From Kocuria palustris (GTDB lineage: Bacteria; Actinomycetota; Actinomycetes; Actinomycetales; Micrococcaceae), in assembly GCF_016907795.1 (NCBI RefSeq), contig NZ_JAFBCR010000001.1, positions 2,356,001-2,420,000 of the forward strand: DNA of 64,000 bases, in the 5' to 3' direction. Positions within the stretch are counted from its first letter, which is position 1. Each line of letters begins with the position of its first letter. A model generated the notes under the pieces. It was given only the letters and a program-made list of their open reading frames with translations, searched no databases and was not told where the DNA came from. Both the position numbers and the translations under genes were made by a program. Positions 22,522 through 53,720 of the stretch are shown here, piece by piece.

Positions 22522-22932
22522 GGCCCGACCCTATCTGCGTGCGCCCGGGCCCTGAGCCCCCACCCGACTGCCCGAATCCGCCCAGCATCGCCATCGACGG
22601 GCTGATGCAGCCCCTCCCGCCATCGAGTGGCCTCGCGGCGTGCTCCCATCTTCCACAGGGCGCCGTCGAGCAGCTTCCCTTGATCCCTCGAGTGGCCGAA
22701 TCCGAACCGCACCGCCACCGACAGGCCGAGTCGTCACCGGTTCCGGCGGCTTGCGGTGAGGAAGCGGCCACCGGATCCAGGAGCGGTGGGCAATCGGCCA
22801 GTCGCTGGAAGGGGAGCGGCGATGCGGCCGCTCGGACATCTACGCGACATCAGCCGGGTCTAGGATCTGCTCGACGGCCGCAGGGCCGCCCGTGCGTCGC
22901 AGCCGCGGCGCCGCTGCCCCACAGGAGCCTCG
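22522..22932. other. Intergenic region carrying repeat copy A
   Basis: A 411-bp divergent gap with no credible gene. It contains the leaderless promoter of the PLP enzyme at its left end. A four-unit palindromic repeat occupies 22689-22804, with degenerate extra units near 22624 and 22814. An AGGAG site precedes the AI-2E family gene at the right end. Confidence 0.6.
22689..22804. repeat. Four-unit palindromic repeat element, copy A (116 bp)
   Basis: Units of 21 nt follow the pattern CGAGTGGCC-N6-TCACCG. Direct units lie at 22689-22709 and 22719-22739 (start to start 30 bp). After a 14-nt centre, inverted units lie at 22754-22774 and 22784-22804 (again 30 bp). The 9-nt linkers between units differ. 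A weaker fifth unit in the same register lies at 22814-22834 (inverted; only its CGAGCGGCC half matches). The same architecture occurs at 51646-51761 and 53363-53477. Confidence 0.85.
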
Positions 22933-50412: not shown

Positions 50413-51513
50413 ATGTCGATGGATGCTCCGGCCGCCCGTCCGTCCGCACTCGATGCCCTCGAGGTGCCGCTGATCGCAGCGCCCATGGCCGGCGGGCCGT
50501 CGAGCCCGGGGCTGGCGATCGCGGTCGCGCGCGCAGGCGGACTGGGGATGCTGGCTGCCGGGTATCAGTCGGCCGAGGCGCTCGCCGAGCAGATCGCGGC
50601 GGTGCGGTCGGGGCTGCGTGACGTCGAGCGTCTGTTCGGCGTCAACGTGTTCGTGGCGGAGTCCTCGCCCACCGATACGCAGCAGCTCGCGGACTTCCGC
50701 TCGCGGTGGGTGCAGGCGGTCGCTGCGCTCGATGCCGAGATGGGGGAGCAGGCCGCGGCGCGCCCGCTTCCCGACTACTCGGACGACGGCTGGGATCAGA
50801 AGATCGCCCTGCTGGTCGAGGATCCGGTGCCTGTCGTGAGCTTCACCTTCGGCCTGCCGCCGGCGGCCACGATCCGGGCGCTGCAGGATGCGGGCACGAC
50901 TGTGCTGCTGTCGGTGTCCTCGTCCGAGGAGGCGGTGGAGGCCGCGGCCTTCGGCCCCGACGCCCTGGTCCTGCAGGGCCCCGACGCCGGCGGGCATCGC
51001 TTCACGCTCGCGCAGGACACTGCGCCGGGGACCACCCCGCTGCCGGAGCTGCTGGAGCAGACGCTGGCGGCGCTGGCGTCGTCCCATCCGCAGCTGCCGG
51101 TCATCGCGGCGGGCGGCATCTCCTTCCGCGCGGAGGCGGCTCGGCTGCTGGAAACGGGGGCCCACGCCGTGCAGGTGGGCACCCTCTTCCTCGCCGCCGA
51201 GGAGGCCGGCACCGGGGCGGTCCATCGGGAGGCAGTGCTGGCTGCGGCGGGCGATCCGTCGTCGGCGCAGACCGTGGTGACGCGCGCGTTCTCCGGTCGC
51301 CCTGCTCGGGCGCTGTCCACGCCGTTCACCGAGGCGATGGCCGAGCACGAGATCGCGGGCTATCCGCAGGTCAACTCGCTGACGTCGCCGATCCGCAAGG
51401 CCGCGGCTGCCGCGGGGAAGCGGGAGCTGGTGCACCTGTGGGCCGGCACGGGCTTCCCCGCGTGCCGAGCCCGCCCCGCCGCCGAGATCGTGGAGTCCTT
51501 CCGGGGCCTGTGA
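50413..51513 (+). CDS. Nitronate monooxygenase (2-nitropropane dioxygenase family)
   Basis: A 366-residue FMN-dependent TIM barrel that oxidises alkyl nitronates (propionate-3-nitronate and related toxins) to carbonyl plus nitrite. Conserved parts are PLIAAPMAGGPSSPGLAIAVARAGGLGMLAAGY (N-terminal FMN loop), GPDAGGHRF (catalytic His region near residue 195), PVIAAGGISF and QVGTLFLAAEEAG. The length fits class I. ATG 50413 follows an AAAGG site. It is followed by an intergenic region with repeat copy B. Confidence 0.9.
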   Translation: MSMDAPAARPSALDALEVPLIAAPMAGGPSSPGLAIAVARAGGLGMLAAGYQSAEALAEQIAAVRSGLRDVERLFGVNVFVAESSPTDTQQLADFRSRWVQAVAALDAEMGEQAAARPLPDYSDDGWDQKIALLVEDPVPVVSFTFGLPPAATIRALQDAGTTVLLSVSSSEEAVEAAAFGPDALVLQGPDAGGHRFTLAQDTAPGTTPLPELLEQTLAALASSHPQLPVIAAGGISFRAEAARLLETGAHAVQVGTLFLAAEEAGTGAVHREAVLAAAGDPSSAQTVVTRAFSGRPARALSTPFTEAMAEHEIAGYPQVNSLTSPIRKAAAAAGKRELVHLWAGTGFPACRARPAAEIVESFRGL

Positions 51514-51812
51514 CCCGCACCGGATCACGTGCATCCTCGGCTGCGTTCTGTCCCGAGCCGTACCGCCGCACGCGTCCCACCGCGACGTCCCACCGCGCCC
51601 CACCGGGCCGCGCCGGCCCCGCCCACCCGACCACCGCCTGCCCCGCGACTGGCCGATTCCTCACCTGTTCCGCCGTGACTGGCCGATCCTTCACCGATTC
51701 GACGTCGAACCGGTGAAGGATCGGCCCCTCGATGCGGGTTCCGTGGGGAATCGGCCACTCGGTAGCGCACCCAATGCCGGTCGACGCAGCCCAGAGACAG
51801 GAGGAACGCTCC
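51514..51812. other. Intergenic region carrying repeat copy B
   Basis: A 299-bp gap. It holds the repeat at 51646-51761, and about 120 bp of C-rich sequence before it with no recognisable gene or terminator. The AGGAGG site of the downstream methyltransferase starts near 51799. Confidence 0.6.
51646..51761. repeat. Four-unit palindromic repeat element, copy B (116 bp)
   Basis: Direct units lie at 51646-51666 and 51676-51696 and inverted units at 51711-51731 and 51741-51761. All are 21 nt and offset by 30 bp within each pair. The 14-nt centre contains the palindrome TTCGACGTCGAA. The second and third units are near-perfect complements (CTGGCCGATCCTTCACCG against its inverse). This is the best-preserved copy. 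Confidence 0.88.
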
Positions 51813-52463
51813 GTGCGTGATCGCGAGACCATCCGAGCGATCTACGACGAGGTGGCACCGGCCTATGCCGCGGCCCTGCCGGATCTGCGAGCTGAGCAGC
51901 CACTCGACCGTGCGCTGCTGCGGGTCCTCGCCGAAGAGGTCCAGGAGGCGGGCGGCGATCGGGTGCTGGACGCCGGGTGCGGGACCGGCCGCATGCTGGG
52001 TCCGCTGCAGGAGCTCGGGCTGAGGGCCGTCGGCATCGATCTCTCCCCGGCAATGCTCGCCGAGGCCCGTTCCGCGATGCCCGGAGCCGAGCTTCATGTG
52101 GCGGATCTCGCGGAGCTGCCCTTCGACGACGCGAGCTTCGACGGCGTCGTGGCCTGGTACTCGCTGATCCACCACGATGTTTCATCGCTGCACGATGCGC
52201 TGGCGGAGCTGGCCCGTGTGACCCGCGACGACGGCAGGCTCCTGACGGCCTTCCATGCGGGCACGGGTCAGGCGCCCGGCGCACGGGCCTACGGGACGGC
52301 GCACACGATGCCCAAGCATCTGCGGGAGCCTGTCGAGATCGCCGAAATGCTGCATCGCACGGGATGGGCGACGACGGCCGCGATCCGACGGGAGCCGGTG
52401 CACGAGCGGCACCCTCAGGGCTTCGTCATGGCGCGTCGTCGCCCGCGACGCAGCGACGACTGA
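51813..52463 (+). CDS. Class I SAM-dependent methyltransferase (UbiE-like)
   Basis: A 216-residue small-molecule methyltransferase. Motif I is VLDAGCGTGRMLGPL (about 51-65), motif II is VGIDLSPAMLAEARSAMPG, motif IV is FDGVVAWYSLIHHD. The acceptor is unknown. It starts with GTG 51813, set by an AGGAGG-type site 7 nt upstream; no suitable ATG fits. It lies between repeat copies B and C together with the broken DUF559 gene, with which it converges at 9 bp. No unusual composition compared with neighbours was seen. Confidence 0.87.
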   Translation: MRDRETIRAIYDEVAPAYAAALPDLRAEQPLDRALLRVLAEEVQEAGGDRVLDAGCGTGRMLGPLQELGLRAVGIDLSPAMLAEARSAMPGAELHVADLAELPFDDASFDGVVAWYSLIHHDVSSLHDALAELARVTRDDGRLLTAFHAGTGQAPGARAYGTAHTMPKHLREPVEIAEMLHRTGWATTAAIRREPVHERHPQGFVMARRRPRRSDD

Positions 52464-52471
52464 GTCGATTC

Positions 52472-53178
52472 TCAGGCCGAGAGGCCTGCAGCAGCACTGG
52501 CCACGAGGGCGACAGCGCGAGGGACCCAGCGCCCGGCGAGGAGCTCCTGCTCCACCAGATCGCGCGCCGTGAGTCGGATCTCCTTCCACCCGTTCTGGGC
52601 CGTGGCACGCTGTCGTCGCACATCCCGTTCGCGCTGGCCCTGCTGATCATGGTGAGTGCCGTCGTGTTGGATGCTGATCCGCAGCACGGGGTCAGCGAGG
52701 TCAGGCAGGACCGGGTATCCGTCGGGGCCGCGCAGCTCGAGGTCGGGTCGGAAGCCTCCGTACCCGTGGTCCTCCAGCATCAGGCCCAGCCGCGTCTCGG
52801 GCTCGGAGTCGACGCCCCGCCCCGCCGCGCTCGCTCCAGGGCTCGCAGCACAGCACGCCGTCCCCTGGTCCCCGCGAGCTCGCTCAGGTCGCGCTCGAGC
52901 AGCTCCAGACTGCGCAGCGCCGGCGGAAGCCCCAGAGCACGGCCGCCGACTGGTGGCTGATGACATGGCCGGGCATGGCTTCGCGCTGTGCCCGGGCGAG
53001 CTGGATCAGTTCGGCTCGGGCGTCTGGCCGAGCGGAGGCCGCCGATGGCCTCAGGGATCGCCAGATCCCCGAGGCCACGCGCTCGCAGCTGCCATGAAGT
53101 GAGGCCGACGGCCATTGCCTCCGGGCGAGCGAAGATGCGCCCTGCAAGGGGCTGGGGAACCTGATGACGCTGCGGCAT
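52472..53178 (-). pseudogene. DUF559 (Vsr-like endonuclease domain) gene, multiply frameshifted
   Basis: Decayed gene of the actinobacterial type with an AbiEi-like N-terminus and a DUF559 PD-(D/E)XK nuclease domain. The N-terminus QPLAGRIFARPEAMAVGLTS, followed by WQLRARGLG, starts near 53178. A middle piece (AMPGHVISHQSAAVLWGF) is in a second frame, LELLERDLSEL and LRALERARRG return to the first, and the nuclease part VDSEPETRLGLMLEDHGY, DLADPVLRISIQHDGTHH and NGWKEIRLTARDL is in a third. At least three frame changes and an internal deletion near 52950-53080 rule out a working protein. In intact homologues the nuclease part carries the catalytic acids. It is flanked by repeats B and C. Confidence 0.8.
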
Positions 53179-53720
53179 GCGCCCAGGGATTACCGAAACG
53201 TCGACGGCGTCCTCCGCGAGCTGTCCGTGTGGAGGCCGAGCCGGGGCGCAGGCGTCGTCCCTCGGTGTGTGTCGCACGCTCAGCTGTTCAGCCGCTGTGC
53301 CGAGGAGACGGATCGCACGGACAGGGAAGCGCCTCCCAAGCCACGCGTTGATCCTGTCGCGTCGAGCGGCCGATCTCTCACCGTTCATGCATCGAGTGGC
53401 CAGAAGCTCACCGTTGCCCGCGGAACCGGTGATGGAACGGCCACTCGGTGGGAGAGGGGGCCAGAAGCGGCCACTCGATGTGCGGGCCGGTGCCGGAGCG
53501 GGTGCCGGCGACGGGCAGAGCGCCGTGCGAGCGCTGCGACGGCGACATCGGCGTGTGAGGTGCGCGACGTCCCGGGGGAGGGGTTGGACTTGCGCGCTAG
53601 ACTCGTCGGCGGACTTCCGCGACCCTTGTCGCGACCCCCGCCGGCTACGGGCCGGAACCGAGCACCGTCCTGGCAGAAGGGGCGGGAGCACGCCATCGTC
53701 TGAAGAGAGACCCCACTCGT
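53179..53720. other. Intergenic region carrying repeat copy C and the typA leader
   Basis: A 542-bp gap with no convincing gene. Repeat copy C is at 53363-53477. A TAGACT box at 53598-53603 could be the typA promoter, giving a leader of about 110 nt. A weak GAAGAGAGA-type site lies before typA. The rest shows nothing recognised. Confidence 0.55.
53363..53477. repeat. Four-unit palindromic repeat element, copy C (115 bp)
   Basis: Direct units at 53363-53383 and 53393-53413 (30 bp apart), a 13-nt centre, and inverted units at 53427-53447 and 53457-53477 (30 bp apart). The fourth unit keeps only the CGAGTGGCC half. Units two and three can form a hairpin with stems CGAGTGGCC/GGCCACTCG and TCACCG/CGGTGA around a symmetric 6-nt internal loop. 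Confidence 0.85.

Follow-up and report, generated by a model that had tools for sequence, protein, structure and literature searches.

The window analysed here, a stretch of 64,000 nt from the 2.9-Mb genome of Kocuria palustris (G000:C1:2356001-2420000, where G000 denotes this genome), contains a decayed nuclease gene between two palindromes upstream of typA, a locus that probably represents, in broken form, one of a family of nuclease cassettes bounded by palindromes, RAYT/REP-like in arrangement and built around an unrelated enzyme. Relatives of this nuclease are flanked by palindromes that match each other left to right, that occur dispersed through the host genomes, and that co-vary with the nuclease, with cassettes and palindromes present in one sister genome and absent from the other at certain sites; binding, cutting, and spreading of the palindromes by the enzyme are inferred.

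The decayed cassette upstream of typA

Ten occurrences of the half-site TGGCCGATYCTTCACC (≤3 mismatches) were detected in the window against 1.2 expected, a count reached in none of 100 shuffles; the repeats are genuine and not a product of chance. Copy B (51646..51761, no strand) is a 116-bp double palindrome forming the cassette boundary on the 3' side of the nuclease gene, in which half-sites (consensus CGAGTGGCCGATTCCTCACC) are arranged as two direct followed by two inverted at a 30-nt pitch. Copy C (53362..53477, no strand), the boundary on the 5' side and about 245 bp ahead of typA, is decayed, with 0.69 of its inner-stem pairs retained in this genome; as in B, it has four half-sites of 16-20 nt. 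A third palindrome of the B/C type, copy A (22688..22804, no strand), is a solitary, dispersed copy elsewhere in the window. Across 18 copies, the consensus of the window-type palindrome begins CGAGCGGCC, and the foot of the repeat is CGAG. At a locus in another genome (L053, G024:C3), the flanking palindromes are made of nested GGGCAGGCTGAGTTCCGG repeats, resembling the four-half-site build of the window copies.

Exactly two genes lie between B and C, as the original prediction had it. The first (51813..52463, + strand) encodes a class I SAM-dependent methyltransferase (Methyltransf_25, E = 1e-22), its start being inferred from the ribosome-binding site, and the second (about 52490..53200, - strand) is a decayed DUF559-type nuclease gene with an AbiEi-like N-terminus and a PD-(D/E)XK domain (MTES_1575 REase, E = 1e-4; DUF559, 17.6 bits against a Pfam cut-off of 20.6). 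In a refinement of the original prediction, the methyltransferase is a passenger; almost all other nuclease units lack such a gene. That the nuclease is dead, as also proposed, was borne out by comparison with an intact 387-aa orthologue, against which it survives as pieces in three frames with residues 148-235 (88 residues) deleted.

This orthologue is found in the sister genome G033 (K. palustris DE0549; TypA 98% identical), where the gene order is permease, nitronate monooxygenase, repeat array, methyltransferase remnant (C-terminal part only), intact nuclease, palindrome, and typA. The array (G033:C58:41820-41935) is orthologous to copy B, and the counterpart of copy C (G033:C58:43379-43494) is a near-perfect palindrome. 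A search for an intact DUF559 homologue in a sister strain, suggested with the original prediction, has thus found one, bracketed by the same two repeats; both repeats must therefore predate the split between G000 and G033, with the nuclease having died on the window side. None of the 15 other Kocuria genomes compared has the monooxygenase, methyltransferase, or nuclease gene ahead of typA; the block to which the monooxygenase and methyltransferase genes belong (window 50413-52463; L111-L125) occupies this position only in G000 and G033 among the genomes compared.

Palindromes flanking relatives of the nuclease

A typical cassette protein is the product of a single gene, is about 330 aa long, and combines an AbiEi-like N-terminal region with a Vsr-like PD-(D/E)XK domain. 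Matches of family members to REase_MTES_1575 (19/20), described as Vsr-fold (PMC3710099), and to DUF559 (10/20) fall mostly below Pfam cut-offs; this also holds for the nuclease domain of the closest relatives, while flanked relatives passing the DUF559 cut-off include L028 (34 bits) and L029 (31.6 bits). Among solved structures, the family profile comes closest to the restriction enzyme PvuRts1I (E = 7e-4). Residues E276, D308, H325, and D334 (K. palustris protein numbering) are among the invariant positions and fit a PD-(D/E)XK site, their catalytic role being inferred from sequence; a single-sequence AlphaFold model was poor (pLDDT 40) and unusable. In the N-terminal half, AbiEi likeness is weak but recurrent (PADLOC AbiEi, 17/23; Pfam AbiEi_4, 5/20). 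AbiEi antitoxins bind inverted repeats upstream of their own genes (PMC7319586), and by analogy this domain may offer the protein a way of finding its own palindrome. A phage origin of the nuclease was rejected, as no relatives were found in viral contigs; a plasmid search returned only two distant hits, both on Arthrobacter megaplasmids.

The window's own palindrome was not found near DUF559 genes of other genomes: the strict form is present only in G000 and G033 among 27 Kocuria genomes, and a strict scan of GTDB matched only K. palustris and one Rhodobacteraceae metagenome-assembled genome. The single window-pattern palindrome in the latter (L073, JAHRYM010000002.1) is probably due to chance or contamination. 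Absence of the window repeat from other DUF559 genes could have refuted the proposed association; this objection was dropped, since a sequence-blind stem finder revealed that each gene of this family tends to have its own palindrome. In most of the close Kocuria relatives of the nuclease, at least one flank of the gene bears a long palindrome, each of its own sequence, and at 16 of 30 Kocuria loci both flanks do.

A profile built from 20 Kocuria nuclease homologues (A2) matched in 120 of the 198 genomes sampled from the order. Flanks were then scored at 90 loci (L184-L273; all except L184 outside Kocuria), counting stems of score ≥14 within 300 bp. Stems stood on both sides of 30 nuclease relatives, on one side of 22, and on neither side of 38; the corresponding numbers for 82 control genes were 1, 11, and 70 (30/90 versus 1/82 for both sides; Fisher p = 8e-9). 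The controls were ORFs of 250-450 aa taken from 400 kb of sequence, in the same genomes or in related ones; as a weakness, neither their island context nor their isolated position was matched. The palindromes to the left and right of the gene match in 29 of the 30 flanked relatives and do not match those of other genes, with a mean local score of 38 for left-right pairs, whereas comparisons between genes average 8 and have a 99th percentile of 19; in the single control pair, left and right are unrelated (score 10). The flanks of TypA served as a further control and yielded one stem of score ≥18 in 79 kb, which belongs to the G033 nuclease. Cassettes have a median span of 1154 bp and a median distance of 6.5 bp from the stop codon to the start of the downstream palindrome.

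Two G000 cassettes that appear bare by the stem finder carry matching degenerate copies, scoring above all 300 shuffles, and 30/90 is thus a lower bound. The lack of a palindrome by the strict finder at 38 of the 90 relatives is in part decay and may in part be real absence. No flanking palindrome pair was found at large proteins with a DUF559 domain (L035, L041, L043, L049, L054), such that flanking is not a general property of this domain. The link between DUF559 and the repeat, offered originally as speculation, is supported at the level of the nuclease family and its cognate palindrome, and not at that of the one repeat sequence of the window. At L139, L140, and L149 in other Kocuria genomes, distantly related DUF559 genes are flanked by A+T-rich palindromes (TTTAAGGTTCCCTATT...), which differ from the GC-rich types.

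Dispersed copies, empty sites, and stem evolution

Cognate palindromes are also dispersed through the genomes. Sites of the window type number about 12 in G000 and about 18 in G033. A second palindrome type has 26 copies in G000, 1 in G030, and 0 in the 25 other Kocuria genomes, among them the sister G033, which lacks both the second-type nuclease and its palindromes. Eight palindromes of this second type lie within 10 kb at G000:C1:1555221-1565315 (L384) in a BIME-like cluster, most of them a few bases past stop codons or in tight intergenic gaps. Genome G096, which is not a Kocuria, contains 16 dispersed copies of its resident nuclease's palindrome, and the dispersed copies in G018 and G007 are likewise the resident nuclease's own; reversed-pattern controls gave 0 each time. 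The dispersed palindromes are intergenic, with 3 of 30 arms inside predicted genes versus 80% coding, and often lie directly past stop codons.

Protein identity correlates with the similarity of the palindromes over 83 units (Mantel r = 0.36, reached in 0 of 2000 permutations). Within Kocuria, a long nuclease homologue (E < 1e-40) is present in 11 of 27 genomes and repeat-model hits in 11, with 10 genomes common to both (hypergeometric probability about 1e-5, calculated by hand and uncorrected for kinship).

Between the sister genomes, three further G000 cassettes are missing from G033 at collinear loci, where spans of 1456, 1463, and 1319 bp in G000 correspond to empty sites of 99, 19, and 129 bp, with gain or loss undecided in each case. 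The empty sites sought in the original prediction thus exist for three cassettes, and its reading of the window locus as a degraded mobile unit fits. At least four solitary palindromes of G000 are absent from G033 (gain or loss again undecided), while others are common to both. Target-site duplications could not be read at these G000/G033 junctions, as the intergenic DNA is strongly diverged.

Stems of the window type show two-sided change at ten pairs, with 37 two-sided cells versus 16.5 in shuffles (reached in 0 of 500), which implies either use of the hairpin or copying of one arm from the other; for the second type, covariation between arms did not reach significance (p = 0.14). Arm pairing is 0.77 in G000, with its dead copy of the nuclease (n = 12), versus 0.88 in G033, with the intact nuclease (n = 18; p = 0.015). 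Such lower pairing would be expected once the maker is lost, although only a single pair of genomes was compared.

Possible mechanism, competing explanations, and known systems

On the mechanism that we propose, the nuclease would bind its own palindrome, probably via the AbiEi-like domain, and would nick or cut the DNA there. As the cut DNA was repaired or replicated, new intergenic sites would gain a copy of either the solitary palindrome (a non-autonomous form) or the whole cassette (the autonomous form). The nuclease and its repeat would co-evolve, and death of the nuclease, as in the window, would be followed by decay of its palindromes. That the nuclease itself is the spreader remains an inference, there being no binding, cutting, or movement data.

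The palindromes could instead be operators or bidirectional terminators, with the AbiEi-like domain autoregulating its gene, the dispersed copies constituting a regulon, and the nuclease taking no part in spread. The binding of AbiEi antitoxins to inverted repeats upstream of their genes (PMC7319586) speaks for operators, and the location of the downstream palindrome right past the stop codon, together with that of many dispersed copies past stops, speaks for terminators; regulation, however, needs neither matching copies on both sides, nor dozens of copies, nor species-limited spread, nor presence/absence of cassettes, and we consider this explanation unlikely, if still tenable. It is less plausible again that some other, unidentified element spreads the palindromes and that nuclease cassettes insert preferentially into them, so that each side keeps half a copy or a whole one. 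Solitary palindromes do outnumber cassettes, and insertion sequences in REPs are known, e.g., ISPpu9 (PMC8450116); against this, each nuclease has its own palindrome type, similarity between types tracks similarity between nucleases, and the sister lacking one nuclease also lacks that nuclease's palindromes. Moreover, no enzyme emerged as a candidate spreader: Y1 transposases (PF01797) were detected in 0 of 27 Kocuria genomes, with five control genomes positive. A RAYT as maker of the palindromes was rejected on the same grounds, the genus being without Y1_Tnp.

A defence or restriction device, with incoming DNA as the target of the nuclease and the palindromes serving to mark or shield the host chromosome, would suit the presence of AbiEi and DUF559 models in defence libraries (with the PADLOC AbiEi matches given above) and the kinship to PvuRts1I; single-gene units of roughly 1.15 kb nevertheless leave no room for a partner methyltransferase or an AbiEii toxin, self-marking does not explain gene-specific flanking pairs, and we hold out very little prospect for this reading. 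As for two ordinary REP-like repeats falling by chance near a dead DUF559 gene, a pair of copies 1.5 kb apart in G033 (L071/L072, G033:C60:59075-60655) does enclose a lipoate ligase-like gene and no nuclease, such that close pairs also arise without a cassette, yet the both-side flank test refutes coincidence at the family level and leaves it scarcely credible.

The cassettes that we take to be spread by their own nuclease resemble RAYT/REP systems, in which the gene lies between two copies, one copy follows the stop codon, gene and repeat evolve congruently, and further copies are dispersed in clusters (PMC2817692). The comparison drawn in the original prediction agrees with the anatomy, i.e., cognate palindromes on both sides of the gene, one often directly past the stop codon, and dispersed, partly clustered intergenic copies like those of REPINs and BIMEs; the likeness extends to compensatory stem changes and to co-evolution of enzyme and repeat. 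In contrast to RAYTs, (i) the cassette enzyme is a Vsr-like PD-(D/E)XK nuclease with an AbiEi-like N-terminus and not a Y1 HUH (IS200/IS605-like) transposase, (ii) the window-type repeat has the foot CGAG and no GTAG head, and (iii) the cassette palindromes are longer, with stems of 20-40 bp. We judge the cassette system to be separate from RAYT/REP and convergent with it.

Other known systems share single features. AbiE type IV toxin-antitoxin systems share the AbiEi-like N-terminal half, from a family that binds inverted repeats; here, however, a C-terminal nuclease is fused on, and the unit, with its one gene, has no room for an AbiEii toxin gene, a point resting on geometry only. Vsr-like homing and free-standing endonucleases, DUF559 proteins, and the MTES_1575 REase belong by profile to the same nuclease family, but the cassettes lie between genes and not inside conserved genes or introns as homing endonucleases do; a cut solitary palindrome could possibly serve as a homing-like entry site for a cassette. 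With regard to insertion sequences and transposons, flanking palindromes and empty sites were seen, with junctions too diverged for a duplication to be read. No earlier report linking DUF559, AbiEi, or MTES_1575 to palindromes was found in open-access full text.

On balance, we lean slightly towards the view that these cassettes constitute an undescribed mobile system of Actinobacteria, evolved independently of RAYT/REP, in which a PD-(D/E)XK nuclease with an AbiEi-like DNA-binding domain would recognise and cut its own palindromes and would spread them together with the palindrome-bounded gene; the nuclease family was found in 120 of the 198 genomes sampled from the order. Were this so, many actinobacterial genes annotated as "DUF559" or "type IV TA AbiEi antitoxin domain" would be repeat-spreading enzymes and not lone antitoxins, and many REP-like palindromes of Actinobacteria genomes would gain a maker. 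The gene-specific palindromes would provide natural, co-evolved pairs for studies of nuclease specificity. The cassettes would also represent an independent route, by a different chemistry, to the REP/RAYT arrangement, thus making palindrome spread testable in a second, unrelated enzyme.
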